64,000 nt of DNA. Origin: Verrucomicrobiaceae bacterium (GTDB lineage Bacteria; Verrucomicrobiota; Verrucomicrobiia; Verrucomicrobiales; Verrucomicrobiaceae). Below are positions 37,629-64,000 of this stretch, one piece after another; positions within the stretch are counted from its first letter, which is position 1; the number at the start of each line of letters is the position of its first letter. The DNA is taken from contig JAEUHK010000046.1 in NCBI GenBank assembly GCA_016795465.1, positions 1 through 64,000 on the forward strand, in the 5' to 3' direction. A model generated the notes under the pieces. It had not been told where the DNA came from. It searched no databases and saw only the letters and a program-made list of their open reading frames with translations. Both the position numbers and the translations under genes were made by a program.

Positions 37629-37647
37629 GGAAAAAAATTATTCCTCA
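37626..37647. other. Hairpin spanning two convergent stop codons
   Basis: TGAGGAA (37626-37632) and TTCCTCA (37641-37647) with an 8-base AT loop. The left arm contains the PP2C stop codon, and the loop contains the minus-strand stop of the metallopeptidase gene (37638-37640). The T-rich loop might support weak bidirectional termination. Confidence 0.4.
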
Positions 37648-39065: not shown

Positions 39066-42000
39066 CTACGGGAGCCAGAGCAGAGGTGTGGTGCGGATGA
39101 GGAAGAGGGATTCGAAGGGCTTCGCGGTAGGCGCGGCGGGGGTCCACTGGCCGTTTTCGAGGGTGTGGGAGGAGTAGTCGCTGGTGGCGGGCTGCCAGAA
39201 GCGGAGGCGGTCGCCTTCGGCGAGATTGGTGGGGACTTCGCCGGAGGTCAGCGAGCCGGTGGTGATGAGCTGCGTGCCTTTGACGAGCGGAATGCGCAGG
39301 GCTTTGGAGCGCACTTCGCCGGTGTAGGCGCGGGTGAAGCCGCTGCCGGTGACCTTCACGAGGATGCCGCTGAAGGCGGTGAAGGGTGCGTCGGCCTCGG
39401 CGGGGACGAAGGTGCTCTTCGCGGTGTCGTAAGCGAGCAGGCGATCGTCGTCGGAGAGATCAGCGGCGGGAAGGAGGGCTTCGAGGGTGTGATGCGGACG
39501 CAGCGTGATGCGGGCGGAGGGGAGATGGAGGGCTGGAGTGGTGGAGTGATGGAGGGTGGTGGCGGTCGCGGTGGGTTTGAGGGTGAGCGTGCGGCCGGCG
39601 TGAGGTCCGTCGAGGATTTCGAGTTCGGTCGTGGCGGGGAGTTTGAGGGATTGAGGAAGGGTGATGGTGCCGTCTTCGCTGATGGTGGCGGTGCCGGTGA
39701 AGAGGGCGGGCTGGGCGAGCGGCATGCTGAAGGTGCGGGCACCGCTGGCGAAGGTTTGGAAGGTCCAGGCCTGCGTGGCGCTGGTGGTGGTGGCTTCGGG
39801 CTTGCCATCGCGATTGGCATCGAGATCGACGCGGAGGCGGAGGAAGCCGAGTGTGGCATTCGCCGGGGCGAGATCGGCGTAACGGCGGGTGACGGTGCCA
39901 TCGCTGTTGAATGTGGCAGCGGCAGGCAGCGCGAGAGGTTTCCAATCGGCCTTGTCGAGGCTGGTGGCGGCTTCGAGGGTGAAGCGGAGGTCGTCGCGGC
40001 CATCAATCGGACGCGTGATGAGAGCGTCGATGGTTTGCTTGGATTGATCGGCTTCGAGCGTGAAGCGTGTCACGAGCAGGCCGCTGCGTGGATCGGTGCC
40101 GAGAGCGTATTCGAGGAGGTTGGAGAGGGTGTCGCCATCTTCATCGGCGGTGGCGAGGGTGAGGTCGTTTTGCGTGCTCCATGAGGCGAAGGTGATCGTG
40201 GAGGCGGTGAGGCTATTCGTGGCGGTGTTGGAGCTTGGCGCGGTGGCACCGAGCATGTTGCTGACGACGTTGGAGGCACTCGGGAAGCCGGTGCCGGAGC
40301 CGCTGACGAGGCCGAGGTCACGCGTGAGATCGGTGCGGGTATCGGTGCCGTCATCGGTGCTGCCTTCGAAGCCGTTTTCCGCCGTGCCGGAGGGGCAAAG
40401 GGTGGGTCGCAGGCTGAAGACGGCGGTGCTGGCACCCGTGGTGCCCGGTGTGGCGGCGGCGAGGAGATCCTGACCGGCATTGTCATCGCCGGCGACGATG
40501 CTGCTCATCGGGATCATGCCTTCGAGCGGCATGCCGCCGCCGAATTGTGAGGCAGGCAGATGCAGGAAGTAGCTGCCAGGATTGAGACCTTCGATGAGGT
40601 AGCGGCCTTTGTTGTCGGTGATGGCGACGCCGGCGGGCGTGGAGGTGCCGGGTGTGCTGCCCTGCGTGTAAATCTGCACGAGCACGCCTTCGAGGCCTTC
40701 GTTGAAGTCGTAGCTGCCGTCGTTGTTGAGGTCGAAATAGACGAGGTTGCCGACGGAGACGGTGTTGAAGACGCCGAAGTCGATGGTGGTGTTCGTGTCG
40801 GCATCGGTGTCCGCATCGAAGGTGGACTCGGTGCCGGCGGCGAGGGCAAAGACGGGGCTGAAGAGCGGTGTGCCGGGTCCGCCGGGCTGCGAGCCGTCGT
40901 TGTTGTTGTCCACGTTGTTGTCCGTGGTGGCCGGCGTGCCGCCGGTTTCGGCGTAATCGGCCGGTGGCGTGACTTTGATGTAGTAATTGCCCGCGGCGAG
41001 GTTGGTGAAGCTGTAAGCACCAGTGGAGGTGGTGGTGAAGTCCGTGCCGACCTGCGTGTCCGGTGAAGCGCCGCCGATGACGTTGTCGGCACCCGGATTG
41101 AAGAGCTGCACGAGGGCACCGGCCACGCCGGGCTCGCCCGCGTTGAAGAGGCCGTTGTCGTTGGAGTCTTCAAAGACGAGGTTGCCGACGGTGAGCGAGC
41201 GGGTGGTGAGCGTGTAGTTGCGGGAGGTATTGCAGCCGTAGGTATCGGCCACGCGGACGGTGAGGGAGGCGCTGGTGGTCGTGGTGGGCGTGCCGCTGAG
41301 GAGGCCGGTGGTGCTGTTCAGCGAGAGACCGGCAGGCAGCGTGCCGCTGGTGATCGAGTAGGTGTAAGGCGAGGTGCCGCCGATGGTGCTGAGCGCCTGT
41401 GAGTAGGCCGCGCCGACGTAGCCGATCGTGAGGGCACCATTCGCCGGGCTGAGCGTGATCGTGGGGCACACCGGGGTGATGGAGTAGGGCTGCGTGCCCT
41501 GGCAGGCATTCGCATCGGTGGCGCGGATGGTGAAGGAGGCGGCCGTGGTGCTGGTGGGTGTGCCGGAGATGACGCCGGTGGTGGTGTTGAGGCTCAAGCC
41601 AGCAGGGAGACTGCCGACGCTGACCGCGAAGGTGTAAGGCGCGACACCGCCGGACGGTGTGATGGTTTGTGAATACGCGGTGCCGACCGTGGCACCGGGC
41701 ATCGAGGCCGGTGCGAGCGTGATCATGCCGCAGGTCGGTGTGATGGTGTAGGCTCGCGAGCCGAAGCAGCCATTTCCATCGGTGACGCGAAGCGTGAAGA
41801 TGGCGGTGGTGAGGCTGGTGGGGGTGCCGCTGATGAGGCCGGTGGTGCTGTTCAGCGTGAGACCGGCGGGCAGGCTGCCGCTTTGCACCGTGTAGGTGTA
41901 AGGCGTGGCGCTGCTGCCGCTGGCGGTGATGGTCTGCGAGTAGGGCGTGCCCGCGGCCATGCCGGAAAGTGTGGCGGGGGCGATGGTGAGGACGGGGCAG

Positions 42001-45000: not shown

Positions 45001-48000
45001 CCAGTGACGGCTCCGGTGGTCGTGTTGAGGCTCAAGCCGGCTGGCAGCGTGCCCGAGGCGACCGCGTAGGTGTAGGGCGCGGTGCCTCCGCTGGCCGTGG
45101 CGCTGCTCGAGTAGGCTGAACCGACGGACAGCGTGCTGTTGAGAGCGGCGAGGGTGATGACCGGACAGATCTTGATCGTGTAGGCACGCGTGCCGGCGCA
45201 GCCATAGACGTCCGTGGCACGCACCGTGACCGAGACACCAGTTCCGTTGGTGGCCGTGGGCGTGCCGCTGAGCACACCCGTGCTCGTGTTGAGCGTGAGG
45301 CCGGCTGGCAGCGTGCCTGCCGTGATGGCGAAGGCATACGGCGCGGTGCCGCCGCTGCCGCTGAAGGTCTGCGAGTAGGCCAGGCCGATGGTGCCGTTTG
45401 CCACCGAGGTGGGATTCACGGTGATCGTCGGGCATACCGGCGCGATGGTGTAGCTGCGGGAACCGGGGCAGCCGTTCGCATCCGTGGCCGTCACGGTGAA
45501 GGTCTGCGAGGTGGTGCTCGTGGGCGTGCCGCCGAGCACACCGCCGCTCGTCAGCGAAAGCCCCGCAGGCAGCGTGCCGGTGGTGACGGCATACGTGTAA
45601 GGCGAGGCCCCGCCGCTGGCGGTGATGGTTTGCGAGAAGGCGGTGCCCACCGTGGCAGTCGTGGTGATCGTGCCGACCGTGATGACCGGGCAGATCTTCA
45701 AGTTCACGGTGCGGCTGCCCTGGCAGCCGTAGGCATCCGTGGCGGTGAAGGTGAGTGTGACACCGGCGCCATTGCTCGCGGTTGGCGTGCCGGCAATGAT
45801 GCCGGTGGAGGCGGTGAAGGTCAGTCCGGTGGGCAGCGTGCCATTCGTGAGCGCCAGCGTGTAAGGAGAGGTGCCCCCCGTGGCGCTGATCGTCTGCGAG
45901 TAGGCCGTGCCGACAGTGCCATTGGCCAGCGTGGCCGGGTTCACCGTGATGGCCGGGCAGACAGGCGTGAGCGTGTAGGCCCGGGCCACGGAGCAGGCAT
46001 TCGCATCCGTGGCGGTGATGGTGAACGAAGCGCTGGCGGTGCTCGTGGCGGTGCCGGTGATGGCTCCGGTCGTCGTGTTGAAGGTCAACCCGGACGGCAG
46101 GGCTCCATTGGAGATCGCATAGACATACGGCGAGGCACCACCTGTGGCCGCGACACCATTCGAGTAGGCCGTGCCGACCACCGGAGTGCCTGTGATGGCC
46201 GGAAGCGAGATCACCGGGCAGATCTTCAGCGTGACGACACGCGTGCCCGTGCAGCCCAGCGCATCGGTGGCGGTGATCGTGAGGCTTGTCCCGGCTCCGT
46301 TGCCCGCGGTTGGCGTGCCGCTCAAAACACCGCCAGAGGTCAATGTGAGTCCGGCTGGCAGCACGCCGCTGGTGACAGCAAAATTGTGCGGCGCTGTGCC
46401 GCCCGTGGCGGTGAAGGTGGTGGAGGTGTAGGCCGTGCCCACGAGGCCCACGGGCAGCGTGGCCGGGTTCACCGTGATCGCCGGGCAGGTGATGGAGAAA
46501 GTATAGCTGCGGGTGCCGGGGCAGCCGTTTGCATCGGTGGCTGTCACGGTGATCGAGGCAGTGCTGGTGGCCGTGGGAGTGCCGGTGATGGCTCCCGTGC
46601 CCGTGTTCAGCGTCAAACCGGCGGGCAAGGTGCCTGTGGTGACGGCAAAGGTGTAAGGCGTGGCACCGCCGGACGCGGCGATCGTTTGCGAGAAGGACGC
46701 GCCGACAGCGCCGCTGGTGGTGATGGCACCCAGCGAGACCACCGGGCAGATTTTCAAGGTGTAGGCACGGTTGCCCGCGCAGCCGTTCGCATCTGTCGCG
46801 GTGATCGTGACGCTCGTTCCGGCACCATTGGCCGCGGTGGGCGTGCCGCTGAGCACGCCGGCCGTCGTCAGCGTGAGCCCGGCAGGCAGCGTGCCGCTGG
46901 TGACGGTGAAGGAATGCGGTGTGGTGCCGCCGGTGGCGGTGATCGTTTGCGAGTAAGCGATGCCCACGGTGCCATTCGCGAGCGAGATGGGATTCACCGT
47001 GATCGCGGGGCACACCGGCGTGAGCGTGTAGCTGCGGGTGCCCAGGCAGCCATTCGCATCCGTGGCACGGATCGTGAAGGTCTGGCTGGCCGTGCTCGTG
47101 GGCGTGCCGGTGAGGGCTCCCGTCGTCGTGTTGAGGCTAAGGCCGGTCGGCAGCGTGCCTGTCGTCACCGCATAGACATAAGGCGAGACGCCGCCGGTGG
47201 CCGCGGCGCTCGATGAGTAGGCGCTGCCCACCGTGGCGCTGGTGCTGATGGCAGCGAGGCTGATCACCGGGCAGATTTTCAGCGTGATCGTGCGCGAACC
47301 CGTGCAGCCGTAGGCGTCCGTGGCACGGAAGGTGAGCGAGACACCCGCTCCATTGCTCGCGGTCGGCGTGCCGCTGAGCACACCGCCCGTCGTGAGCGTC
47401 AGGCCGGCAGGCAGCGTGCCGCTGGTCAGGGTGAAGCTGTGCGGCGCGGTGCCTCCGGTGGCGGTCAGCGTCTGTGAATAGGCCAGGCCCACGATGCCGT
47501 TGGCGAGCGAGGTGGGGTTCACCGTGATCGTCGGACACACCGGGGCCAGCGTGTAGGCTCGCGAACCGGCGCAGGCATTCGCATCCGTGGCGGTGATGGT
47601 GAAAGTTTGCGAGGTGGTGCTCGTCGGCGTGCCGGTGATGGCTCCGGTGCTCGAATTCAGGCTCAATCCGGCCGGCAGCGTGCCGGTGGTCACCGCGTAG
47701 GTGTAAGGCGAACGCCCTCCGGCGGTGGTGATGCTTTGCGAGTAGGCGCTGCCGACTGTGGCGGCGGCCAGCGTCGTGGGTGAAAGCGTGAGCGTGGGGC
47801 ATGCGATGCTCACGATGTAGTCCTCGATTTCACCGCTGCCCACGGCACCGGTCGGCGCGGTGACGGCTTGATTGGTGAGACGCACACGCACACCGCGTCC
47901 GGCTCCGGGGCTGGAGATAAGCGGCACGGTAAAGGTGATGTTTTGCGTGGTGGCGGCCGTGCCTGTGGCAATGGCACGAGAGGCCTCCAGACGCTCACCA

Positions 48001-54000: not shown

Positions 54001-57000
54001 GCACGAGTGCCCTGGCAGCCATTCGCATCCGTGGCACGGATCGTCACGCTCACACCGGCCCCATTGGCCGCGGTCGGCGTGCCGCTAAGCACACCGGCTG
54101 AAGAAAGCGTCAAGCCGGCCGGCAGCGTGCCAACCGACACCGCGTAGGTGTAAGGAGCGGTGCCACCGCTGGCGGACATCGACTGCGAGTAGGCCAGCCC
54201 CACCGTGCCGTTGGCGAGCGAGGTGGGATTGACAGTGATCGTGGGGCACACCGGGGCCAGCGTGTAGCTGCGCGTGCCCGGGCAGCCGTTCGCATCCGTG
54301 GCACGGATCGAGAAGGTCTGCGAGGCCGTGGAGGTCGGCGTGCCGGTGACCGCCCCCGTCGTCGTGTTCAGGCTCAGACCAGCGGGAAGCGTCCCGCTGC
54401 TTACCGCATAGGTGTAAGGTGCCACGCCGCCGCTGGCCGTCGCGGCCGACGAGTAGGCGGAACCGACCGTGAGCGTGCTGTTGAGCACCGCGAGCGAGAT
54501 CACCGGGCACACTTTGATGCTCACCGCCTGGTCCTTCGTGCATCCATCTGCATCCATGGCACGCACGGTGACGCTCACGCCGGCCCCGTTTGCCGTCGTC
54601 GGCGTGCCGGTGACCACACCAGCCGTGGTGAGGCTCAATCCAGCAGGCCAGGTGCCCGTGACCGTGCTCCATGAGTAAGGAGTGGTGCCGCCGGCGGCGG
54701 AAAGCGTCTGTGAGTAAGCCGTTCCCACGGTGCCGTTCGCCAGCGAGGTGGGCGAGACCGTGATCGCAGGGCACAACACGGTCAGCGCATAGGTGTTCAG
54801 GGCAAAGCAGCCGTTCGGATCAGCAGCTCGAACGTTGAAATTGTACACGCCAGGCGGGCTGGTGATGCTCACGGCGCTCAGGAAGCCCGTGCCGGCATTC
54901 AAACCAAGGCCCTGCGGCATGCCGTCATTACCCGTGGTCCAGGCGGTGTATCTCGCGGTGACCTCCGCGGCCGTGAGCGCCCGGTTGTAGATCTGCACCT
55001 CATCGATGCCGCCCTTCCACGGGAAGTTGCCACCGCCTGCGTTGCCGATCTCCAGCGCCGCGGTGCTGTGATTGATGGCGGCGGTGTAGGCAAAGCTGCT
55101 GCGCTGCGTGCCATTCACATACAGGCGGATGTTTGCGCCGTCATACGTGGCCACCACATGCTGCCAGACGCCGGTGGTGAGCGTCGTGGTGGCGCGATTC
55201 GTGGCGTAGTTGTTGATCCAGAAGCCGAAGGTCGTGTCATTACCGAGCTGGCCGAGGCCGTAGCCGTTGTTCCAACTGCCGCTCGTGGTCTTGCTCACCA
55301 CGCCGCCGAAGGCGTTCATCGTGTAAGTCGGGTTCACCCAGGCCTCGATGGTGATCTGCGTGGGACGCAGCGCGGCGCTATCTGGCACGGTCACCTGATC
55401 ATCGACACCGTCGAGGCTGAAAGCCCTGCCCGCCATGCCCGTCGCAAGCGTGCCGGTGCCGAGATCGAGCGTGCCATTGGACGTGCCACCGATGCTCATC
55501 GCGCTGCCTTCCGCAGGCCACCAGGCCGCGAGACCGCTCGGAGCCGCCGGAGCCGCGCTCCACGAGTAGCTGATGCCCGTCGTGCCCGTCGTCGTGGCAG
55601 TGAGGCCTTGATTGTAGGCGACATACTTCGTGCCATTCGGCAGCGTGGTGGGTGTGATGCTGATCGGCGGGCAAAGGACATTGATCGTCATCGCCTGTGT
55701 GGTGGCGCAGCCGAGCGAATCCGCCGAACGCACCGTGAAGCTGTAGGTGCCTGGAATCGCCGCGACGGTCGTGGTGCCGCTGATCGTGCCCGCGCTGCTC
55801 AATGTGAGACCACCGGGCAGCGAACCGCTGGTGATGGAGTAAGTATAAGGTGCCACGCCGCCCGTGGTGCTCAGCGTCTGCGAGAAAGCGGCATATTGCG
55901 TGTTCGTGAAACTGATCGGAGCGATCGTGAAGGCCGGGCAGGGCCGGAAGCCGATGTCGAGCGTGTTTTCACTGTTCGTCGTTCCCGCCGTGCCAGGCTC
56001 CGAAGCGGCTGCAAGAGTCACCAGCGGCGTCACGACGCTGTTTCCGAGCCCGCCGCTCTGCGTGCCGTTGTTGTCATTGTCGATGCCATTGTCCGTGGAG
56101 ACGCTGTTGATCGCCAAAAGGGCCGCGGCGGCCGGTGGTGTCGGAATACGCACGCGATACTGGCCCGGCGTGTAAATGGTGAAACCATACTGGCCGCTCG
56201 CATTCGCCGTGGTGCTCGTGACGACGGTGCTGGTGCTGTCGAGCAGCTCCACACTAAGTCCGGTGAAGGTGCTGACGGTGTCCGTTCCGGCGTCGTAGAG
56301 GCCGTTGTTGTTCGTATCGATCCAGATCTGGTTGCCGAGGGCGATGCCGCTCCACAGGCCGAAATCGACGGTCATTTCCGTGTCCGGATTCGTATCACCA
56401 TCGGTGATGGACTCCGTGCCGCCTTGCAGGGCAATCATCGGGCTGCGGATCAGCGTGCCCGGTGCGCCGCTCTGCACGCCGTTGTTGTCGTTATCGACCT
56501 GGTTGTCGAGGTTCACCGGCGTGCCGCCGCTCTTCGCCAGCGAGGCGGGGGGCGTGAACTGCACATAATAGTTCCCCGCGGCGAGGTTGGCGAAGCTGTA
56601 ATTGCCGCTGCCATTGGTGGTGGCGGTGGTTTGCAGCACGTCATCGGCATCACCCACGATGGTGTTGGTCGATTTGTAGAGCGAAAGCGTCACCACGCCG
56701 GTGCCGACGCCAATCTCCGTGCCGCCTTTGAGGCCGTTGTTGTTCGCGTCGTTCCACACCGTGCCACCCAGCGTGAGCGTGGCACTCGGGGTGACGTTGC
56801 AAAGCGCCACATGGTCGAGCACGAGCGGGTTCGTGGCACTGCCGCCGGAGACGACGAAGCTGGCGCTGTCGATCTGAGCGGCCGTTGCGAGCGGATTGAC
56901 ACGGAAACGATAGCGGAACTGCTTCCAGGTCGGCATCGCGGTGTTCGCGGTGGCTTCCGTCCAGGTCGTGTTCGTGTAATCGGCGGCGGTGAAGGTGGGC

Positions 57001-60000
57001 ACAGGCGTGCCGGTCATCTCGCTCTGCTGCACCTGATAGTATTGGTAGAAGCCCGGCGTGGCTCCGCTGATGATCTGGAAGACCTGGCCGCTGGCGGCGC
57101 CGAGATCCCAGATGACGCTCGCATTAGCCGCGGAGGCGTTGGCAGCCCACACGCTCAATTCATACTCGCTGCCCGCCGTGAGCACTGTGCTCCATGCACC
57201 GCCACCGGCAGCCCGCAGGCTCACGCAGGAGTTTGTCCCCTGCACCAGCACCATGCGCTTGCCATGGCGTGCCTTGCCGGATTCCGTCCACGACACGATG
57301 CCGCCCGAGGCACCCGGCAGCACCTGCACACGCTGGATCGGCTCACCAAGACCGGAATTGACCCCACCGGACCAGCGGAAGGCATTGAACGCACCCAGCG
57401 AGGTGCCGGCACCATTGTAGCCGAGCACCGAGGTGCCGGTGCCGGTGACATTCGGCAGGCCCTGGATTTCAAAGCTGGGGTTGTCGAAGAGATTGGTGAC
57501 GTAGCAGGGATCGGTGTTCGCGAAGCCGAAGTCGATGGTGCCATCACAATCCGTGTCATCGCCATCCACGCCGCTCGCAGGCTCGCCACCGACACTCAGT
57601 GTGATGATCGGTGAGAAGACCTCCGCGCCGCTGCCTCCGGTCTGGATGGCATTGCTGTCGTTGTTGATGCCGTTGTCCAAATTCACACCGCCCGTGCTCA
57701 CCGAAGGATGATACACCGGGGGTGTGGGAATACGGACAAAGTAGTTCCCCGGTGCGAGACCGGCGAACTGATACGCACCGTTCCAATCGGTGATCGTGGT
57801 GGCCACCTGCGTGTCATCCGCATCACCCCGCGTGAGATTGGTGGAACGCCAGAGTTGCATGGAAATGTTCGGAGCGCCGCTTTCGGTGCTTTGACGCGTG
57901 CCGTTGTTGTTCATGTCGATGAACACCAGATTGCCGACACACAGTCCTTTGACGGTGACGACGACCGCCGTGGCGGCGCTCTGGCATCCGTTCACATCCG
58001 TGGCACGCACGCTGAAGCTGGTGGAGGCCGTCGCCGTGGTGGGAGTGCCGCTCACCACACCGGCGCTGCTGAGTGTGAGACCGGCGGGCAGCGTGCCCGT
58101 CGTGATCGCATAGGTGTAAGGCGCGGTGCCGCCGCTGGCGCTGAAGCTTTGCGAGTACCCCACGCCGACGTAACCATTCGCCAGCGAGGTCGGCGTCACG
58201 GTGATCGTGGGGCAGGCAGGCGAGACATTGTAGGCGCGGGAGCCTGTGCAGGCATTGGCATCCGTGGCGGTGATGGTGAAAGAGGCCGCGGCACTGCTCG
58301 TGGGCGTGCCCGTGATGGCACCGGTGGTCGTATTGAGGCTCAAGCCGACCGGGAGTGATCCACTCGTAACCGCGTATGTATAGGGCGCGACTCCTCCCGT
58401 GGCCGCGGCACTCGACGAGTAAGCGGTGCCAACCACAATCGTCGGCGAGATGGCCGCTGGCGTGATGGTGGGGCAGATCTTGATCGTGTAAGCACGCGTG
58501 CCGAGGCAGTTGTAGGCATCACGAGCCTGCACGGTGATGGAAACACCCGCGCCATTGCCCGTGGTAGGCGTTCCGGAAAGCACACCCGCCGTGCTGAGGG
58601 TCAAACCGGCCGGCAGCGTGCCCGCGGTGACGGTGTACTGATACGGCGAGGTCCCGCCGGTGGCCGTGAAGGTCTGCGAGTAGGCGATGCCCACCGAGCC
58701 GTTCGCGAGGGAGGTGGGATTCACGGTGATCGGCGGGCAGCTCATGGCCAGCGTGTAGTCACGCGTGGCCGTGCAGCCATTGGCATCCGTCGAGCGGATG
58801 GTGACGGTGCTGCTGATCTCCTGCGTGGGCGTGCCACTGAGCACGCCTGCGGTGCTCAAGGTCAGCCCGCCAGGCAGCGAACCGGTGGCGATGGCGTAGG
58901 TGTAAGGTGCCACGCCGCCACTGGAGGTGATCGTTTGCGAGAAGGCTGTGCCGACGGTGCCTGTGGTGGTGATGGCACCGAGGGTGAAGACCGGGCAGAT
59001 CTTGATCGTGTAGGCACGTGTGCCCTGGCAGCCGTAGGTGTCGGTGGCACGGATCGTCACGCTCACCCCTGCCCCGTTTGCCGTCGTCGGCGTGCCGCTG
59101 AGGACGCCCGTGGTGCTCAGTGTGAGGCCTGCGGGCAGCGTGCCTGCGGAGACGGCAAAGGAGTAAGGAGCCGTGCCGCCGCTGCCGCTGAGGGTCTGCG
59201 AGTAGGCGATGCCCACCGTGCCGTTTGCCACGGAGGTGGGATTCACCGTCACCGTGGGACACACGGGTGTCAGTGTGTAACTGCGAGTGCCCTGGCAGCC
59301 ATTCGAGTCCGTGGCGCGGATAGTGAAAGTCTGCGCCGTGGTGCTGGTGGGTGCGCCAGAGATGCCGCCATCACTGGCCAGCGTGAGTCCTGCGGGCAGC
59401 GTGCCGGTGGTGACCGCAAACGTGTAAGGCGCCAGACCTCCCGTGGCGGTGACGGTCTGCAAGTAACTGGCCCCCACGGTCGGTGTGCCCAGCGTGGCGG
59501 GATTCACCGTGAGCGAGGAGCAATTGATCGTGACGACGTAGTCTTCGATTTCACCGCTGCCCACCGCGCCGGTGGGTGTGGTGACGGCCTGGTTCGTCAA
59601 ACGCACACGCACACCTCGGTTCGTGCCCGGGCTGGAGGCCTGCGGCACGGTGAAGGTGATGTTCTGCGTGGTGGCCGTGGCTCCGCTGGCAATGGCACGG
59701 GAGGCCTCCAGACGCTCACCACCGCTGGAGAGCAGCGTGTCGCTGAAGACGCCGTCGTTGTTGAAGTCGATCCACGCGTTCAGATAGGCCGTGGCTCCGG
59801 TGTTGTTGAACACGGAGACCGGCAGCGTGGCGTTCACATTCTGCGTGATGCTCGCTGGCATCGTCACACCGTCTTCGTCATCCGCGCTGCCGGTGTTTGT
59901 GGTGTCGTCCGCCGTGGCGGTGTTGCTGGCGGTGACGCTGGATTCGACGTCCACGGTGGCACCGAGGCGCAGGTTGGTGTTCGCGACGCTCGTCGTGGTC

Positions 60001-63000
60001 GCCGTGGCGGCACCAGCGGGGTTCGTGGCGTGCGCCCAGTCACCCAGATCGGTGGTGGGAGCGGCGCGGAAGCAGAGCTTGCGGAGAGCGGCGGAGGCCT
60101 GGCCCGTGGTGGGCGCGGTATTGAAGGTCGAAGCCGCGGTCGAGCGCCAGAACTGGATCTCGATGCGGCGGATGGGCGTGTTCCCCCACGAGAAGCTGGC
60201 ATTGCCGTACACCGGCGTGGCGGCCTGCTGATCATCAAGGCCCCCGAGATAGGCACCCGCCGCGCCGTTGTTGATGATCTGCGGCCCGGTGCCGGTCGTC
60301 ACTGCATCACAGGTGACCGTCTGGCCGACGATCGATACCGGTGCAATGCCTGTGCCCGCCGCGTTGTAAGCACGCACAAAGGCCCATTCACGCGCCCCGC
60401 CGATCGTGCCGATGCTGCCGATGCCCAGATCGTCCATGAGCACATCCTTGTCGAAGGTGAGCTGCACCTGCGCATGGCCCGTGGCCGTGCCGACGCCGGT
60501 GGTGACGCTCGTGCTGGTGTCACCGGTGTTGTTGGTGAAGCGCAGACCGCCGAAGAACATCGGATTGCACTGCACATCGTTCGGATTGCCCTGCGTGTTG
60601 ACGTTGTCGTAGGTCGGATCGAAGCGCGGCACATAGATGTTCGGCGACTGCGCATCGTACATGTTGCTGGAGTAGCTCACCGTCACGCTGGTGTTGGTGG
60701 AGAGCACGTTGGAGAAGGTCTGGCTCGTGTAGGCGGCGTTCACCAGACGCGGCTGGCTGATCCAGCCGGTGCCCGCGGTGGGCGCGGTGCGGGTCAGCGT
60801 GCGCCAGTCCGGCCACACGAGGTAGGGCGGGCACTGCGGCATCGGCGCAAAGCCGAAGTCGATGGTGAGGTTCGTGTTGTTGTTGGTGTCACCATCCGTG
60901 ATGGACTCCGTGCCGATGGCGAGATTGACCAGGCCGCTCGTCACCGCCGTGCCGATGCCGAGCGTGTGAATGGCGTTGTTGTCATTGTCGTCGTCATTTT
61001 CAGCAAAAGCCGAGGGCGTGCCGAAACCATCCGGCACGCCGCTCGACATCGTGAAGCCCGCCGGAACGCTCGGCAGCCTCACAAAGTATTTTCCGGCCGC
61101 CAGCGAGGTGAACGAATACAAGCCGCCGCCCGCCGTGGTGATGTTCGAGCCCACCTGCACGTCATCGCCATTGCCGATGTAGTTGTCCGTGGTGCGGAAG
61201 AGCTGCACCGTCACGCCATCGAGGCCGGGCTCGCCCACATCACGCACGCCGTTGTTGTTGTCATCACGCCACACGAGGTTTCCGATGGTGAGCGAGGGCG
61301 CGATGACGACCGTGTAAGCACGCGAGGCCGGGCAGCCATTCGCATCGGAGGCACCGATGGTGAAGTTTGAGGTCGCGGCGGTGGTCGGTGTGCCGGTCAA
61401 AGCCCCTGTGCTGGTGTTCAGCGTGACGCCCGCGGGCAACGTGCCGCTGCTGACATTGTAAGTGTAAGGTGCCACACCGCCGCTGGCGCTTACGGATTGA
61501 TTGAAGGCCAGGCCCACCACGCCATTCGAGAGACTCGTGGGGCTCAGCGTGATGACCGGGCACACTTTGATGGAGACGATCTGCGTGCCCTGGCAGCCAT
61601 AAGTGTCATTCACACGCACCGTCACATTCACACTCGGGCCCGTGCTCGTCGTCGGCGTGCCGCTGATGACGCCGGTGGAGGCATTCAGCGTCAAACCTGC
61701 CGGCAGAGTGCCGCTGGTGATCGTCCACGTGCCATACGGCGCGGTGCCGCCGCTGGCGGTGAGGGGTTGCGAGTAAGCCGTGCCCACCGTGGCATTTGGC
61801 AGCGTGACCGGCGTGATCGAGATCGTGGGGCAGGCCGGTGTCAGCGTGAAGCTGCGTGAACCCGGGCAGGAGTTCGCATCCGTGGCGGTGATGGTGAAGG
61901 TGGCCGCGGTGGTGCTCGTCGGCGTGCCGGTGATGGCACCGGTGCTCGTGTTCAAGCTCAAGCCTGCCGGCAGACTGCCGCTGGTCACCGCATACACATA
62001 CGGCGAGATGCCCGCGCCGGCCGCGGCACTCGACGAATACGGCGTGCCGATGGTGAGCGTGCTGTTCAGCGTGGAGAGCGTGAGCACCGGGCAGATCTTC
62101 AAGGTCATCGTGCGGGTGCCGACGCATCCGCGAGCATCCGTGGCGGTGAAGGTGAGCGAAGTGCCAGAGCCATTGCTCGTCGTCGGCGTGCCGCTGATCG
62201 TGCCGGTGCCGGCGTTGAAGGTCAGCCCGGCAGGCAGCGTGCCATTCGTGAGTGCCAGCGTGTAAGGCGCGGTGCCGCCGCTGGCGCTGATGAGCTGGCT
62301 GTAAGCCGTTCCCACGGTGCCCACCGCTGGCAAAATCGGGCTCACCGTGATCGTGGGGCAGGTGAAGAGGCCAAAGTCGATGGTGAGATTGCTGTTCGAG
62401 TCCGAATCACCATCCGCCACCGATTCCGCGGCGAGCGCCAGATTGATAACCGGGCTCAAAAGCGCCGTTCCCACGCCACCGGGCTGCGAACCATCGTTGT
62501 TGTTGTCGATGTTGTTGTCCGTCGTGGCGACATTGGCGGTGGTGACGGTGTTCGCCGGCGTGGTGACACGCACATAGTAGTTCCCCGGCGAGAGATTGGT
62601 GAAACGATAAGCCCCGGCAGTATCCGTCGTCGTGTTCGCTCCGACCTGCGTGTCTTGATTGGCACCGGTGCCGCCGACGGCGTTGTCCGCGCCCGGATTG
62701 AAGAGCTGCACGGTGAGCCCAGCCACGGCGCTCTCACCCGCTTCCTTGATGCCGTCGTAATCCGCGTCGTTCCAGACGTGGTTACCGATGGTCATGCTCG
62801 GCTGGCAAAGCACGATGTCATCGATGGCCACCGGGCCGCTGCCCGCCGTGGCGCTCAAAATCAATGAGGCGGAGTCAATCTGCGCCGCGGTGGCCGTGGG
62901 CGAGATGGCGAAGGTGTAGATGTAGCGGCGCCAGTTCGGCTGTGTGACCGTGGCGGTGGCCTCGTTCCATCCATTGTAGTCCGTCGAGGTAAAGCTCGTT

Positions 63001-64000
63001 GGCCCACCGGAAGGCGAAACCCAGCGATTCTGCGTGGCGGCATAGTAGTGAAGCTGCGTGCCGCTCGTGCCGATGCGGAAGATAGGCTGGCTGGCACCCA
63101 GATCGAGCTCGAAGGACGAATTTGCCGTGCTCGCCGTGTCCGCCCACACGCTGAATTGATACGTTCTGCCGGCTTGCAGCACGCTGCTCCAGGTGCCGCC
63201 GCCTGCGGGCTTCACCTCCACGCAGGACAGCTCACCTTCGAGAAGCATGTACCGCTTCCCTTGATGCGCCCGGGCGCTTTCCGTCCAGGCCACCTTCGCG
63301 CCGGTGCCCACCGCCAACACCTTCATGCGCTGGATCGGGTCATTCAAAGCCGACATCGGGTTCACACCACTCACCCAGCGCAGGGCATTCACGTTGCTGC
63401 CAAAGGTCGTTCCGGTGCCGTTGTAGCCCAGCGAGGCAAAAAGCGCTCCGGTGGCATTTGCGCCGCCGTTGAGCTCAAAGCTCGGGTTGTCGATCAAATT
63501 GGTGCTGTAGCATGGATCAGTGCTCGTGAGGCCAAAGTCGATGGTGAGGTCTCCATTCGTGTCATCACCATCCACACCCGCGGCAGGCTCCGCACCGGCG
63601 GTGAGCGTGATGATCGGACTACGAATGGCAGTGCCCACGCCACCGACCTGACGGCCGTTGTTGTCTCCTTCCTGCTGATTGTCCGCCGTGTCCGGCACAC
63701 CCGAGGTCATCGGGAAGTCCGCTGGAGGCGTGGGAATGCGGACATAGTAGGTTCCCGCCGCGAGGCCGCTGAAGACGTAGTTGCCATTGAGGTCCGTAAC
63801 GAGATCGCTGCCGATCTTCACATCGTCCCCTGCCCCGTTTTCCTCCGTGGCGTTCGCTCCCGGCGTCCAAAGCTGCACCGTGACACCCGGCTCACCTGTC
63901 TCGCTGGTATCTTTGACGCCGTTGTTGTTTGCATCGATCCACACGAGATTGCCGATGGACAAGACACCGGCACTCACTGTGACCGCATAGTCTTCCACCT
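39066..64000 (-). CDS. Giant multidomain surface protein (5' end beyond window)
   Basis: An uninterrupted frame of at least 8,310 codons (~25 kb), open at the window edge; the first codons read (V)EDYAVTV, the end of a GEVED domain. N- to C-terminal order (bases): SdrD-B-like 63965-63530; NPSFE-type module 63520-62810; SdrD-B 62800-62365; 4 putative-Ig repeats; SdrD-B to 60850; unknown module and GEVED to 59530; 6 Ig; SdrD-B, NPSFE module, two SdrD-B to 55950; 2 Ig with an inserted LamG (55540-54940); 20 Ig; GEVED 49505-49000; unknown module; GEVED to 47810; 25 Ig; two SdrD-B to 40300; an EYALGTDP hinge (~40100); and a ~330-residue C-terminal region resembling TIGR02597. No LPXTG or PEP-CTERM tail is visible. 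Probably a cell-surface adhesin or matrix protein (inference). Confidence 0.9.
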   Translation of the reverse strand, partial: VEDYAVTVSAGVLSIGNLVWIDANNNGVKDTSETGEPGVTVQLWTPGANATEENGAGDDVKIGSDLVTDLNGNYVFSGLAAGTYYVRIPTPPADFPMTSGVPDTADNQQEGDNNGRQVGGVGTAIRSPIITLTAGAEPAAGVDGDDTNGDLTIDFGLTSTDPCYSTNLIDNPSFELNGGANATGALFASLGYNGTGTTFGSNVNALRWVSGVNPMSALNDPIQRMKVLAVGTGAKVAWTESARAHQGKRYMLLEGELSCVEVKPAGGGTWSSVLQAGRTYQFSVWADTASTANSSFELDLGASQPIFRIGTSGTQLHYYAATQNRWVSPSGGPTSFTSTDYNGWNEATATVTQPNWRRYIYTFAISPTATAAQIDSASLILSATAGSGPVAIDDIVLCQPSMTIGNHVWNDADYDGIKEAGESAVAGLTVQLFNPGADNAVGGTGANQDTQVGANTTTDTAGAYRFTNLSPGNYYVRVTTPANTVTTANVATTDNNIDNNNDGSQPGGVGTALLSPVINLALAAESVADGDSDSNSNLTIDFGLFTCPTITVSPILPAVGTVGTAYSQLISASGGTAPYTLALTNGTLPAGLTFNAGTGTISGTPTTSNGSGTSLTFTATDARGCVGTRTMTLKICPVLTLSTLNSTLTIGTPYSSSAAAGAGISPYVYAVTSGSLPAGLSLNTSTGAITGTPTSTTAATFTITATDANSCPGSRSFTLTPACPTISITPVTLPNATVGTAYSQPLTASGGTAPYGTWTITSGTLPAGLTLNASTGVISGTPTTSTGPSVNVTVRVNDTYGCQGTQIVSIKVCPVITLSPTSLSNGVVGLAFNQSVSASGGVAPYTYNVSSGTLPAGVTLNTSTGALTGTPTTAATSNFTIGASDANGCPASRAYTVVIAPSLTIGNLVWRDDNNNGVRDVGEPGLDGVTVQLFRTTDNYIGNGDDVQVGSNITTAGGGLYSFTSLAAGKYFVRLPSVPAGFTMSSGVPDGFGTPSAFAENDDDNDNNAIHTLGIGTAVTSGLVNLAIGTESITDGDTNNNTNLTIDFGFAPMPQCPPYLVWPDWRTLTRTAPTAGTGWISQPRLVNAAYTSQTFSNVLSTNTSVTVSYSSNMYDAQSPNIYVPRFDPTYDNVNTQGNPNDVQCNPMFFGGLRFTNNTGDTSTSVTTGVGTATGHAQVQLTFDKDVLMDDLGIGSIGTIGGAREWAFVRAYNAAGTGIAPVSIVGQTVTCDAVTTGTGPQIINNGAAGAYLGGLDDQQAATPVYGNASFSWGNTPIRRIEIQFWRSTAASTFNTAPTTGQASAALRKLCFRAAPTTDLGDWAHATNPAGAATATTTSVANTNLRLGATVDVESSVTASNTATADDTTNTGSADDEDGVTMPASITQNVNATLPVSVFNNTGATAYLNAWIDFNNDGVFSDTLLSSGGERLEASRAIASGATATTQNITFTVPQASSPGTNRGVRVRLTNQAVTTPTGAVGSGEIEDYVVTINCSSLTVNPATLGTPTVGASYLQTVTATGGLAPYTFAVTTGTLPAGLTLASDGGISGAPTSTTAQTFTIRATDSNGCQGTRSYTLTPVCPTVTVNPTSVANGTVGIAYSQTLSGSGGTAPYSFAVSAGTLPAGLTLSTTGVLSGTPTTANGAGVSVTIRATDTYGCQGTRAYTIKICPVFTLGAITTTGTVGTAFSQTITSSGGVAPYTYAIATGSLPGGLTLSTAGVLSGTPTQEISSTVTIRSTDANGCTATRDYTLAMSCPPITVNPTSLANGSVGIAYSQTFTATGGTSPYQYTVTAGTLPAGLTLSTAGVLSGTPTTGNGAGVSITVQARDAYNCLGTRAYTIKICPTITPAAISPTIVVGTAYSSSAAATGGVAPYTYAVTSGSLPVGLSLNTTTGAITGTPTSSAAASFTITATDANACTGSRAYNVSPACPTITVTPTSLANGYVGVGYSQSFSASGGTAPYTYAITTGTLPAGLTLSSAGVVSGTPTTATASTSFSVRATDVNGCQSAATAVVVTVKGLCVGNLVFIDMNNNGTRQSTESGAPNISMQLWRSTNLTRGDADDTQVATTITDWNGAYQFAGLAPGNYFVRIPTPPVYHPSVSTGGVNLDNGINNDSNAIQTGGSGAEVFSPIITLSVGGEPASGVDGDDTDCDGTIDFGFANTDPCYVTNLFDNPSFEIQGLPNVTGTGTSVLGYNGAGTSLGAFNAFRWSGGVNSGLGEPIQRVQVLPGASGGIVSWTESGKARHGKRMVLVQGTNSCVSLRAAGGGAWSTVLTAGSEYELSVWAANASAANASVIWDLGAASGQVFQIISGATPGFYQYYQVQQSEMTGTPVPTFTAADYTNTTWTEATANTAMPTWKQFRYRFRVNPLATAAQIDSASFVVSGGSATNPLVLDHVALCNVTPSATLTLGGTVWNDANNNGLKGGTEIGVGTGVVTLSLYKSTNTIVGDADDVLQTTATTNGSGNYSFANLAAGNYYVQFTPPASLAKSGGTPVNLDNQVDNDNNGVQSGAPGTLIRSPMIALQGGTESITDGDTNPDTEMTVDFGLWSGIALGNQIWIDTNNNGLYDAGTDTVSTFTGLSVELLDSTSTVVTSTTANASGQYGFTIYTPGQYRVRIPTPPAAAALLAINSVSTDNGIDNDNNGTQSGGLGNSVVTPLVTLAAASEPGTAGTTNSENTLDIGFRPCPAFTIAPISFTNTQYAAFSQTLSTTGGVAPYTYSITSGSLPGGLTLSSAGTISGTTTVAAIPGTYSFTVRSADSLGCATTQAMTINVLCPPISITPTTLPNGTKYVAYNQGLTATTTGTTGISYSWSAAPAAPSGLAAWWPAEGSAMSIGGTSNGTLDLGTGTLATGMAGRAFSLDGVDDQVTVPDSAALRPTQITIEAWVNPTYTMNAFGGVVSKTTSGSWNNGYGLGQLGNDTTFGFWINNYATNRATTTLTTGVWQHVVATYDGANIRLYVNGTQRSSFAYTAAINHSTAALEIGNAGGGNFPWKGGIDEVQIYNRALTAAEVTARYTAWTTGNDGMPQGLGLNAGTGFLSAVSITSPPGVYNFNVRAADPNGCFALNTYALTVLCPAITVSPTSLANGTVGTAYSQTLSAAGGTTPYSWSTVTGTWPAGLSLTTAGVVTGTPTTANGAGVSVTVRAMDADGCTKDQAVSIKVCPVISLAVLNSTLTVGSAYSSAATASGGVAPYTYAVSSGTLPAGLSLNTTTGAVTGTPTSTASQTFSIRATDANGCPGTRSYTLAPVCPTITVNPTSLANGTVGLAYSQSMSASGGTAPYTYAVSVGTLPAGLTLSSAGVLSGTPTAANGAGVSVTIRATDANGCQGTRALTLKICPVIAVGAITTTGTVGTAFSQTITASGGAAPYTFTLTSGALPGGLSLTTGGVLSGTPNVEISSTVTVTATDANGCTGMRNYTLAMSCPPMTLNPASLPIGLVGSAYTSTTFSTTGGTAPYQYTVIAGTLPAGLTLTTAGVLSGTPTAANGAGTSITVQSRDAFNCLGTRAYTIKICPVISLAAISTTINVGTAYSSSAAASGGATPYVYAVTSGALPTGLSLNTTTGAITGTPTNSTSATFTITATDANACTGSRAYTLAPICPTITVNPTSLANSTLAVAYSQTVTASGGTAPYTFAVSVGTLPAGLTLNASTGAITGTPTASNGAGTSITIRATDNYGCQGTRVYNLKICPVISLGAISPTVVVGTAYSQTVVPSGGATPYTFAVTSGTLPTGLSLNTTTGIISGTPTNTTSQTFTIAATDANACPGTRSYTLAPVCPTITINPASLANGLVGTAYSQSLTATGGTAPFSFALTSGTMPAGLTLASSGAITGTPTASNGAGVSLTFTVTDTYGCTGTRVIPIKICPVISLAALNTTLSVGSAYSSAATASGGATPYVYAVTSGTLPAGLSLNTTTGAITGTPTSTTSQTFSVTATDANACAGTRSYTLTPVCPTITVNPTSLANGAVGIAYSQTLSAGGGTGPYTFSVTNGTLPPGLTLTSTGVLSGTPTAGNGAGVSLTFTATDSLGCTGTRVITLKICPTVSLAAITSSATVGTAYSQTATASGGVSPYTFAVSTGTLPAGLSLNTTTGAITGTPTNTTAQTFTITAADANACAGSRSYTITPVCPAITVNPALVAAGLVGTAYSQTLTATGGTAPYNFTLTAGTLPAGLTLTAGTGVIAGTPTASNGAGVSLTFTATDAYGCTGTRTVTLKICPVVSLPAIATSLTVGTPYSQTIVPTGGATPYTFAITSGSLPAGLTMSTGGVLSGTPTSATGSTFTVTATDANACQGSRAYTLTPVCPTITLSPTSFANGLVGSPYTQTFGASGGTAPYSFALVSGVMPAGLALTSGGVLSGTPTTSNGGGVTLTFRATDAYGCTGQATLTLKICPVISLAAISGSATMGSAYSQTATASGGGAPYVYAVASGTLPAGLTLNTSTGTIAGTPTSGTPQTFTISATDANGCSGTRSYTITPVCPTITVNPTSLSNGTVGIAYSQTASATGGTAPYTYTISSGTLPAGLTINSTTGVIAGTPTTSNGPGTSITITATDSLGCTGNRTLNLKICPVVALGAITTTGTVGTAYSQTVTASGGATPYTYAVTTGSLPGGLTLNASTGVISGTPNVEISSTVTITATDANGCPGTRSYTLAMSCPPITVNPASLPVGLVGSAYASTTFSATGGTAPYQYTVIAGTLPAGLTLTTAGVLSGTPTASNGAGVSITVQARDAFNCLGTRAYTIKICPVISLNPASFVTPLVGRPYSDTVTAVGGATPYVYAIVAGSLPAGLSLNTSTGVISGSATSATAATFTLQATDANACTGTRAYTITPASADFGDYPPFAAAAQAISSGIYIHHGATAVATDGETAPPTTGTADADDTTGSDDENLNIPVVLTGLTPTAQPRFVIPVTLSGITSGRIGVWIDWNGDNDVLDTNETVTLSSANLVSGVNSITATLNPPAGTTVGTKYLRVRVTEGTTVPTFSGESPLRGEVEDHPVTVTSPIVMYAMNLKENAGLMTANSPVPWNYRSATCITPLNLQLFTTNNGITTSDDQYGEGPLYPNVTMGNGTFGRCTSGWDTTFNNALTTARTSLTPVIRTAPFTMTFGGMDAGTAITGFTLDVAREAATSPLNAQIFLTWHDGTAYRTARTAAVSLENIHSVFSPPTPVSNWQSLHFPGFTLGDALPTGTALSAETFLCEVYFWGGSGGRLEVDNFTLLGTTVCAVNDMGDWAHSTNAAGAATTSTTSVANTNLRLGATVDVEAVVSPTSAANVDDTTNTGSADDEDGVTMPASITQNANATLPVSVFNNTGGTAYLNAWIDFNNDGVFSDTLLSSGGERLEASRAIATGTAATTQNITFTVPLISSPGAGRGVRVRLTNQAVTAPTGAVGSGEIEDYIVSIACPTLTLSPTTLAAATVGSAYSQSITTAGGRSPYTYAVTTGTLPAGLSLNSSTGAITGTPTSTTSQTFTITATDANACAGSRAYTLAPVCPTITVNPTSLANGIVGLAYSQTLTATGGTAPHSFTLTSGTLPAGLTLTTGGVLSGTPTASNGAGVSLTFRATDAYGCTGSRTITLKICPVISLAAISTSATVGSAYSSSAAATGGVSPYVYAVTTGTLPTGLSLNTTTGALTGTPTSTASQTFTIRATDANGCLGTRSYTLTPVCPAITVNPISLANGTVGIAYSQTITATGGTTPHSFTVTSGTLPAGLTLTTAGVLSGTPTAANGAGTSVTITATDANGCAGNRAYTLKICPVVSLGAITTSGAVGASFSQTIAASGGATPYTFAVTTGTLPAGLTLNTGTGAITGTPTATSTASITVTATDANGCPGTRSYTFSITCPAITVNPATLPVGLVGTAYTSTTFTATGGTAPHNFAVTSGVLPAGLTLTSGGVLSGTPTAGNGAGTSLTITATDALGCTGTRVVTLKICPVISLPAITGTPVVGTAYSNGVAATGGASPYVYAISNGALPSGLTFNTTTGAITGTATSTASASFTITATDANACSVARAYTLTPVCPAITVNPATLANGTVGTAYSQTISATGGTSPYTLALTNGTLPTGLTFTASTGIIAGTPTASNGAGVTLTFTATDAYGCQGSRTVNLKICPVITVGTITTTATVGTAFSQTITASGGASPYTYAVTTGTLPAGLSLTSGGVLGGTPTSTTSQTFTVTATDANGCPGSRSYTIAPVCPTITVNPTSVANGTIGLAYSQTFSGSGGTAPYAFAITAGTLPAGLTLNTSTGVLSGTPTATNGTGVSVTVRATDVYGCAGTRAYTIKICPVITLAALNSTLSVGSAYSSSATASGGTAPYTYAVASGTLPAGLSLNTTTGAVTGTPTSTTTQIFTIRATATNGCIGTRSYTLTPVCPTITVNPTSLANGTVGIAYSQTASATGGTAPYTYSITAGTLPAGLTLNSTSGAITGTPTTSNGAGTSITITATDSLGCTGSRPLTLKICPVVTLGTITTTGTVGTAYSQTITATGGATPYTFAVTTGSLPGGLTLNASTGVISGTPNVEISSTVTITATDANGCPGTRNYTLAMSCPPITVNPASLPVGLVGSAYASTTFSATGGTAPYQYTVIAGTLPAGLTLTTAGVLSGTPTASNGAGVSITVQARDAFNCLGTRAYTIKICPVISLAAISTTATTGVAYSSAATASGGASPYVYAVTSGVLPAGLSLNTATGAITGTPTSTTSQTFTITATDANACVGSRSYTLAPVCPAITVSPTSLANGTVGIAYSQTLTASNGTSPYAWTTQSGTWPAGLALSSGGIVSGTPTTSTGAAVSVTVRATDANGCFKDQAVSVKVCPVITLPAISTALTVGTAYSASSAATGGVSPYTYAVSAGTLPAGLSLNTTTGAITGTPTSTTSQTFTITATDVNACAGTRSYTLAPACPVITVNPTSLANGAVGVAYSQTLTATGGTAPRTFTLTSGTLPAGLTLAAGTGVISGTPTAGNGAGVSLTFTATDAYGCTGTRTVTLKICPTITLPAISTTLTVGTSYAALAAASGGAAPYVYAVTTGTLPAGLSLDVNTGAINGTPTSTTSATFTITATDANGCAGSRSYTLAPVCPAIAITPTSLTNGTLGLAYSQTLTASNGTVPYTWSTTSGTWPAGLTLSSAGVVSGTPTATNGAGVSVTVRATDVYGCFKDQAVTIKICPVITLSPTTLVNGTVGLAYSQTVTASGGATPYTYSVSSGTLPSGLSLNATTGAITGTPTSSAAATFTLRAADANGCAGTRSYTVTPACPVLAVNPTSLANGTVGLAYSQTLTASGGTSPYGSWTVTSGTLPAGLTLNASTGVISGTPTTQNGAGTSITVRVSDTYGCTGTRTYNLKICPVLTIAPATLSGMAAGTPYSQTITASGSSATPYTYTVQSGSLPAGLTLNSTTGLISGTPTSLTTAIFTLRVTDGNGCFGSRAYTITPTCGMITLAPASMPGATVGTAYSQTITPSGGVAPYTFAVSVGSLPAGLSLNTTTGVISGTPTSTTAASFTIRATDANACQGTQPYSITPVCPTITLSPANGALTIGYVGAAYSQALSTIGGTSPYTYSITSGTLPAGLSLNSTTGLLSGTPTTTTSASLTVRVADTYGCNTSRNYTLTTRSLTVGNLVFEDSNDNGLFNAGEPGVAGALVQLFNPGADNVIGGASPDTQVGTDFTTTSTGAYSFTNLAAGNYYIKVTPPADYAETGGTPATTDNNVDNNNDGSQPGGPGTPLFSPVFALAAGTESTFDADTDADTNTTIDFGVFNTVSVGNLVYFDLNNDGSYDFNEGLEGVLVQIYTQGSTPGTSTPAGVAITDNKGRYLIEGLNPGSYFLHLPASQFGGGMPLEGMIPMSSIVAGDDNAGQDLLAAATPGTTGASTAVFSLRPTLCPSGTAENGFEGSTDDGTDTRTDLTRDLGLVSGSGTGFPSASNVVSNMLGATAPSSNTATNSLTASTITFASWSTQNDLTLATADEDGDTLSNLLEYALGTDPRSGLLVTRFTLEADQSKQTIDALITRPIDGRDDLRFTLEAATSLDKADWKPLALPAAATFNSDGTVTRRYADLAPANATLGFLRLRVDLDANRDGKPEATTTSATQAWTFQTFASGARTFSMPLAQPALFTGTATISEDGTITLPQSLKLPATTELEILDGPHAGRTLTLKPTATATTLHHSTTPALHLPSARITLRPHHTLEALLPAADLSDDDRLLAYDTAKSTFVPAEADAPFTAFSGILVKVTGSGFTRAYTGEVRSKALRIPLVKGTQLITTGSLTSGEVPTNLAEGDRLRFWQPATSDYSSHTLENGQWTPAAPTAKPFESLFLIRTTPLLWLP
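41205..47802 (-). repeat. Putative-Ig repeat block D (25 units)
   Basis: Twenty-five units (6.6 kb) from a GEVED domain down to an SdrD-B-like domain, with the same two-type alternation as block C except in the last four or five units, which diverge (APATLSGMAAG, APASMPGATVG, SPANGALTIGYVG). Contains the dyad 44107-44634, nearly identical to 49771-50298. Confidence 0.85.
49515..54775 (-). repeat. Putative-Ig repeat block C (20 units)
   Basis: Twenty units of about 88 codons (5.26 kb) alternating between two types: CPTITVNPTSLANG...KICPV and CPVISLAAIST...TPVCP. The pair makes a ~527-bp dyad. Contains near-duplicate dyads at 49771-50298 and 53455-53979. Confidence 0.85.
54940..55540 (-). other. 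LamG (concanavalin-like) domain inside an Ig repeat
   Basis: About 200 codons reading AAWWPAEGSAMS, FSLDGVDDQVTVPDSAAL, TIEAWVNPTYTM, GVWQHVVATYDGANIRLYVN and GGIDEVQIYNRALTAAEVTA, the standard LamG/Laminin-G-3 order. The preceding residues (ISYSWSAAP) are the first half of a putative-Ig unit and the following ones (MPQGLGLNAGTGFLSA) are its second half, so the lectin-like fold is nested in that unit. Confidence 0.8.
57965..59525 (-). repeat. Putative-Ig repeat block B (6 units)
   Basis: Six He_PIG-like units between a GEVED domain and an SdrD-B-like domain. It includes an EISSTVTIR/AMSCPPITV unit pair (58472-58993) that recurs in blocks C and D. Confidence 0.8.
61300..62362 (-). repeat. Putative-Ig repeat block A (4 units)
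   Basis: Four He_PIG-like units of about 88 codons inside the giant gene, each opening with CP(T/V)(I/L) and containing VGTAYSQ, a GGTAPY-like turn, LPAGL(T/S)LN and a TDANGCPGTR-like end. Flanked by SdrD-B-like domains. Confidence 0.8.

Follow-up and report, generated by a model that had tools for sequence, protein, structure and literature searches.

A giant Ig-repeat gene of a Verrucomicrobiaceae bacterium and its relatives within the genus

Extent and domain organization of g1

The window, which denotes the whole stretch of 64,000 nucleotides that was analysed (contig C82:1-64000), carries on its minus strand a reading frame, g1, that is still open at the window edge, and the question raised by this locus is whether g1 is a genuine gene and, if so, what its product does. 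In the window, g1 is open over 39069-63998, which corresponds exactly to the 8,310 codons counted in the first-pass annotation, and it ends in a stop codon at 39066-39068; the runner-up open frame contains 1,003 codons. The segment 39066..64000 (the C-terminal 8,310 codons plus the stop codon, minus strand) continues beyond the window edge to C82:68642 (L001:8642), where a stop is reached, and the whole frame (39069-68642) comprises 9,858 codons. A putative start (ATG at C82:68516 or 68510) is preceded by GGAGG, both read by eye, and the predicted N-terminus shows a Sec-type signal peptide, also read by eye, that ends near QAQ. Extension past base 64000 thus recovers a start region and a signal peptide, and the concern that an upstream stop might lie near the edge with neither of them falls away; g1 is a complete gene. 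From the ATG at 68516, the product has 9,816 residues, a mass of ~980 kDa and a pI of 4.6. The claim that this frame is among the longest in bacteria is overstated, since the g3 frame of the same assembly (11,332 codons) is longer and frames of Omnitrophota reach 39,678 aa, as given in the available part of PMC10066038. Giant proteins of PVC bacteria are therefore already in print, and size alone is not new.

Read towards the stop codon, with all features on the minus strand, the window part of g1 begins with a GEVED domain that crosses the edge (63978..64000; whole domain, C82:63978-64208), as had been proposed. This domain is followed by an SdrD_B domain (63519..63962), NPSFE module 1 (62793..63518), which has a CBM_4_9 match below cutoff, a second SdrD_B domain (62361..62792), four Ig-like domains (61305..62360) and a third SdrD_B domain (60843..61298). 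Module X2 (60051..60842), for which no family is found, precedes a GEVED region (59523..60050), six Ig-like domains (57969..59522), an SdrD_B domain (57525..57956), NPSFE module 2 (56787..57524), two SdrD_B domains (55941..56786), a lone Ig-like domain (55677..55940) and an Ig-like domain (54780..55673) that is split by a LamG insertion (LamG query stretch 54948-55526). An array of 20 He_PIG Ig-like domains (49521..54773) leads to a GEVED region (48999..49514), module NTD2 (48327..48998), which is 42% identical to the N-terminal module of g1, and a further GEVED region (47805..48326). An array of 25 He_PIG Ig-like domains (41208..47801) and two SdrD_B domains (40293..41198) then lead to the C-terminal module of 374 aa (39069..40190), which consists of a DxDGD..LLEYALG element, an Ig/FnIII-like domain and a TIGR02597-like region. 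Besides the N-terminal module and its related second copy NTD2, g1 holds modules X1 and X2, and a GEVED domain directly follows each of X1, X2 and NTD2.

Over the whole of g1, 64 He_PIG HMM pieces represent 63 Ig-like domains, the domain split by LamG being counted once, and these are arranged along the protein in groups of 4, 2, 4, 6, 1 plus 1, 20 and 25; 57 of them lie in the window part, in agreement with the earlier estimate of about 57 repeats. The PF05345 (He_PIG) scores of three g1 pieces are 1774.5, 567.1 and 248.8 bits (42+15+6 stretches; cutoff 24 bits). The earlier SdrD-B, GEVED and LamG calls are borne out by the Pfam HMM search, which gives totals of eight SdrD_B, six GEVED and one LamG, and the NPSFE module proposed from the window is present in two copies. 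PF20009 (GEVED) exceeds its cutoff in six g1 stretches; a seventh GEVED row on C82 is weak (8e-5) and lies within an SdrD_B stretch. The Pfam SprB repeat model exceeds its cutoff as a whole score on two g1 pieces, with no individual stretch passing. CshA_NR2 was sought in X1, X2 and NTD2, and no Pfam family matches them at E<=10, a threshold that divergent folds could escape. The sole Pfam match of the N-terminal module is a sub-cutoff hit to Allantoicase, and a protein search for homologues of this module returns none at E<=0.001; in genome searches, the module is present in 22 of 56 genomes, often within giants. No catalytic domain over cutoff and no RTX family are found in g1 by the Pfam and NCBIfam searches.

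The Ig-like domains carry one cysteine at the domain start and another near the F-G loop, and both are present in 129 of 131 Ig domains scoring over 45 bits in four proteins (g1, g2, g3 and the G016 protein), a near-invariance that makes intra- and interdomain pairing indistinguishable by co-occurrence. Both sites presumably sit at the same end of the Ig fold, so that a disulphide within each domain is likely. An Ig domain is ~4 nm long, and the 63 Ig domains alone would span ~250 nm.

A family of giants with a common C-terminal module

With the C-terminal module as query, the own genome yields g1 together with g3 (C129), g2 (C16, 7,906 codons), g4 (C21, 7,720 codons) and g5 (C16, 2,316 codons). 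The whole module is present in all five proteins, as seen in a five-row alignment, and three weaker rows in the same genome match solely its first third; the five frames sum to 39,132 codons, which corresponds to 1.7% of the assembly. The TIGR02597 model has no match on g1 or g2, and its scores on the other three paralogues (37.7, 43.3 and 45.7 bits) do not reach the curated cutoff of 50; the module is therefore called only TIGR02597-like. A structure comparison of the module yields no convincing structural relative, and its last 230 residues, modelled alone, give a weak model (pLDDT 66.6). Three other big frames (G000 C93:19922-29539, C26:14233-21690 and C12:1-3378) end in a DxDGD..NLLEYAxG-like element that lacks the remaining module, and verrucomicrobial proteins may use this C-terminal element generally.

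In a survey of 56 genomes with the module alignment, of which 35 belong to the genus, the own one included, a match at E<=0.001 is obtained in at least 52 of the 56, many of them in the first part of the module alone. For many genomes, scoring covered 30 candidates. A strong match (E<=1e-50) is found in 27 of the 35 genus genomes, among the matches listed. Frames over 5,000 codons that carry the module are present in at least 17 of these 35, and in at least 20 when frames found by the N-terminal module are added; one large-frame match each in G016, G027 and G030 runs through a stop codon. Among the matches listed, large frames also occur in G049, which lies outside the genus, with 6,659 and 7,695 codons. 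Of 17 database relatives, two are annotated as GEVED domain-containing protein and assigned to Prosthecobacter sp. A partial protein of 268 aa, P0024, is 95% identical to the g1 C-terminal module over 27% of the query and is filed under Candidatus Obscuribacter, possibly as a misplaced contig.

In a tree of 62 C-terminal modules (57 selected genome matches and the five own), the g1 clade contains 10 rows, and its other nine frames range from 2,626 to 7,558 codons; the 4,342-codon frame of G004 in this clade reaches a contig end. The nearest to g1 is a 6,992-codon frame of G016, whose protein is collinear with the last ~800 residues of g1 at 51-65% identity and has an N-terminus that resembles that of g2 (by eye). 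Residues 3520-4560 of g1 (SdrD_B, NPSFE, SdrD_B, Ig and LamG) are collinear with g3 at 37-75% identity. Some g1 Ig stretches are 82-88% identical to g2 versus 56-59% to the G016 protein, a comparison in which the 10 Ig pieces of the G016 protein offer fewer chances of a close match than the 21 of g2. These relations suggest that the paralogues of a genome likely exchange stalk blocks but retain the C-terminal module, and the family would illustrate how a giant gene keeps its end while its stalk is rebuilt from blocks common to its paralogues.

Such a mosaic relation to its paralogues could also arise if the g1 frame were an assembly artefact, in which several surface-protein genes were joined or a repeat was collapsed or expanded. 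The assembly is a draft of 132 contigs (6.76 Mb, completeness 95.41) with a contamination of 7.48%, so that the other giants need not all share one cell with g1 (the GC3 of g4 is lower, 0.72 versus 0.80-0.81), and the G016 protein joins its g2-like N-terminus to a g1-like C-terminus, as a misjoin might. However, the longest exact repeat within g1 is 68 bp, the longest exact stretch common to g1 and g2 is 42 bp, and no exact repeat is thus of a length that would readily collapse, so that the feared frame break or repeat collapse did not occur in so far as this assembly allows a judgement; Tandem Repeats Finder returns one 53-bp row on the window part. GC3 is even along g1 (0.73-0.84, with 0.73-0.87 in five neighbouring genes). 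For the youngest duplicates, residues 6110-6290 and 7998-8178, dS is 0.344 and dN is 0.033, and 76 pooled Ig pairs of equal length and over 72% DNA identity give a pS of 0.43 and a pN of 0.17; purifying selection acts on the g1 protein. Additionally, comparably long frames that carry this C-terminal module occur in at least 16 other genus genomes, including G016, which is assembled in 6 contigs. The short exact repeats and the dN/dS of 0.1 indicate that g1 is a selected gene and that a repeat artefact is unlikely; an artefactual frame in the broader sense is regarded as highly improbable.

A tandem pair of bacterial tubulin genes is located at G000:C74:33959-36052, separate from an FtsZ-like gene. 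Bona fide tubulins in prokaryotes were known from Prosthecobacter only, according to the part of PMC3349469 available, and the pair is consistent with Prosthecobacter, which is the likely host. Among the matches listed, the strong giant module is present in 23 of 24 genus genomes with tubulin (E<=1e-45) and in 4 of 11 without it, an association that is confounded by descent and genome size, the module-less genomes measuring 3.5-4.7 Mb. Such an association would fit a structural role of the giants in the cell envelope or the prostheca (stalk) instead of one in adhesion; this reading is very improbable in view of the confounding and of the adhesin-like domain content. Prosthecobacter has cultured members, and attachment and floc phenotypes are therefore testable.

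Genes adjacent to the giants

The gene D1 (37638..39056, minus strand, 472 aa) begins 9 bp past the g1 stop codon, and its product has a membrane-anchor-like N-terminus and a HEITHQ motif (both by eye). Pfam assigns no family to D1, and a distant flagellinolysin match lies below cutoff. A relative of D1 with 59% identity starts ~48 bp past the matched end of the G016 giant, the closest g1 orthologue. D1 homologues are present in 53 of 56 genomes, giants present or not, and D1 was rejected as a family-wide core partner, as it adjoins a giant at only 1 of 57 fetched loci (L055). That this membrane-metalloprotease-like protein processes or releases g1 may be a possibility specific to g1.

On the upstream side of g1, an M56 (BlaR1-type) peptidase is fused to secretin and SLBB domains (L001:10119-12134; C82:70119-72134), and a GDSL lipase gene lies between this gene and g1. 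The left part of the window contains TonB-dependent receptor, DUF1501, halogenase-like, sulfatase and PSCyt2/PSD1 genes (734-2797, 5830-7296, 15017-16453, 19142-20563 and 21969-23732). No type 1 transporter is found among 19 ORF translations scanned (near g1, elsewhere in the window and in L001). The T9SS marker SprA has no match in the own genome, and none of 14 control genomes matched either. An L,D-transpeptidase was considered as a cell-wall anchor and rejected: in the g3 clade, 10 of 14 rows have a YkuD-type gene downstream of the giant (Pfam-checked in two; examples are L036, L037 and L063), yet its orthologues also occur in G010, G014 and G026, which have no strong module, and apart from giants elsewhere, so that the adjacency may reflect one inherited event.

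Downstream of both g4 and g5 lies a small gene whose product has a signal peptide and a tail of PEP-CTERM type; the g5 partner gene sits between g5 and g2. A profile was built from five such proteins, all picked for standing beside giants, and retrieves 73 rows in 56 genomes. Adjacency, defined as a position within 600 bp on the same strand and directly up- or downstream of a giant or module-bearing frame, was scored on the 37 strongest rows of the 73 (E<=6.8e-30). The partner adjoins such a frame in 31 of the 37 rows, or in 26 of 32 when the five query rows are set aside; seven upstream cases were observed directly, and the frame starts of the remaining ones were computed from frame length. 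The 31 adjacent rows are related by descent and are spread over three families of one order. Among the six failures, three have no giant in the fetched stretch (G016:C3, G027:C224 and G000:C122), G049:C5 is encoded on the other strand, G021:C306 borders a contig edge and G024:C96 is a second copy 955 bp off. TIGR02595 (cutoff 16 bits) scores 27.5 and 23.8 bits on two of four partners and falls just under cutoff on the other two, the own g4 partner and that of G016 (14.4 and 14.3 bits). Distant partner homologues at L083 and L085 have a different tail. Four exosortase matches over cutoff are present in the own genome, three of them strong; the control search matched in 1 of 14 genomes.

No PEP-CTERM gene is found beside g1 or beside its closest orthologue in G016, and the PEP-CTERM model has no match on g1 at E<=10, whose end lacks the tail (PEP motif, membrane helix and basic cluster). 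Two similar partner-type genes occur at G000:C122:75349-76077 and G016:C3:24918-25694, with no giant in the fetched surroundings, and they might serve giants elsewhere, e.g., g1. PEP-CTERM was first encountered in Verrucomicrobium spinosum and has been linked with exopolysaccharide and an attached lifestyle, as stated in the accessible part of PMC1569441, and PEP-CTERM proteins contribute to floc formation elsewhere, as seen in excerpts of PMC9850573 and PMC9012009.

Proposed role and comparison with known systems

A complete gene, a signal peptide (by eye) and adhesin-type modules support the earlier proposal of a surface fibre or matrix component, whose size claim was too strong and whose display, length in nanometres and role are inferred. 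The reading that is considered reasonably probable is a Sec-exported, surface-held long Ig fibre that has a conserved C-terminal module, is used in attachment or flocs and is maintained by purifying selection. Sec is predicted to carry the g1 product out of the cytoplasm, and the Ig arrays would form a stalk that is probably stapled by disulphides. LamG, the NPSFE modules and the modules directly before three GEVED domains may bind polysaccharide or other cells, and docking at the cell surface would fall to the C-terminal module. In several relatives, a likely anchor or assembly partner is the adjacent small PEP-CTERM protein, presumably processed by exosortase; g1 has no such neighbour, and the downstream D1 may instead process or release it. 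Attachment or floc formation is the likely use. The sequence data establish the gene, its family, the selection on it, the retained C-terminus and, in relatives, the linkage to the partner gene; export, outer-membrane passage, anchoring, disulphides and ligands of the giants are predictions.

The giant could alternatively be a released matrix or coat component that cross-links exopolysaccharide, with the C-terminal module as a secretion or assembly signal. Its C-terminus carries no known anchor signal (no PEP-CTERM model matches), the metalloprotease-like gene 9 bp downstream could free it, and PEP-CTERM systems are linked to exopolysaccharide (PMC1569441, in part). However, the conserved C-terminal module and the PEP-CTERM-type gene adjacent to the giants of relatives suggest docking, and release is considered rather unlikely. 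The giant might also act in contact or predation by touching or degrading other cells, a role proposed for giants of Omnitrophota. This role would fit the PVC lineage, the LamG domain and a giant size like that of some Omnitrophota frames (PMC10066038, as far as its available text goes); such a role appears improbable, as g1 has no catalytic domain over cutoff in Pfam or NCBIfam and the Omnitrophota frames are described in that text as poorly conserved and rich in membrane helices, unlike the g1 family.

The surface-held fibre may be extended, tentatively and at less than even odds, to a two-part system of Prosthecobacter and relatives in which the giants are docked by an exosortase-processed PEP-CTERM protein of the same operon, and stalks are recombined among the giant paralogues of one genome, so that fibre lengths and binding modules would differ from strain to strain. 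To our knowledge, most giant proteins of PVC bacteria offer no genetic handle, and only a small number of assemblies are known to require sorting by PEP-CTERM/exosortase; the occurrence of a PEP-CTERM-type gene beside giants across three families of a single order connects these two topics and opens each of them to experiment. In the open-licence literature, no mention of TIGR02597, no paper on Prosthecobacter together with PEP-CTERM, no giant-protein partner for a PEP-CTERM gene and no report of a genus-wide giant family with a TIGR02597-like end and PEP-CTERM linkage was found.

With the TIGR02597 family, the giants share the sub-cutoff matches of three of the five own paralogues, g1 and g2 having none. 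Type 1 secreted giants such as LapA and BapA carry a C-terminal secretion signal. The SiiE-type giant Ig-repeat adhesins, which are type 1 secreted, resemble g1 in their giant Ig-like stalk, and the known ones, as far as the sources seen describe them, serve attachment; g1 differs in its Sec-type signal peptide (by eye). PEP-CTERM/exosortase systems, as presented in part of PMC1569441, are matched by the small tailed neighbours of the relatives and the exosortase matches of the genome, whereas g1 itself is without the tail.

According to the portion of PMC10952558 at hand, the CshA_NR2-type binding domains of fibrillar adhesins always stand before a GEVED domain, and stalks are formed by SdrD_B-like domains. 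The CshA-type adhesins described there share with g1 the GEVED domains, an SdrD_B-like stalk, domain shuffling and modules placed before GEVED. In g1, by contrast, no CshA_NR2 is detected before the three GEVED domains, He_PIG arrays dominate and no LPXTG-type end is seen. The Giant1-5 proteins of Apilactobacillus kunkeei (PMC12863079, seen in part) resemble the g1 family in that several giant surface-protein genes occur per genome and undergo intragenic recombination; they are set apart, by their description, as Gram-positive proteins with beta-solenoid N-termini that are encoded by five consecutive genes. Huge proteins are frequent in PVC phyla (PMC11573180), and the giants of Omnitrophota and other PVC bacteria, as covered by the available parts of PMC10066038 and PMC11573180, share with g1 the PVC lineage, frames of >20 kb and, in some, LamG or adhesion domains. 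Compared with the Omnitrophota giants as described in that material, the g1 family differs in that it keeps one C-terminal module and has clear orthologues across the genus.
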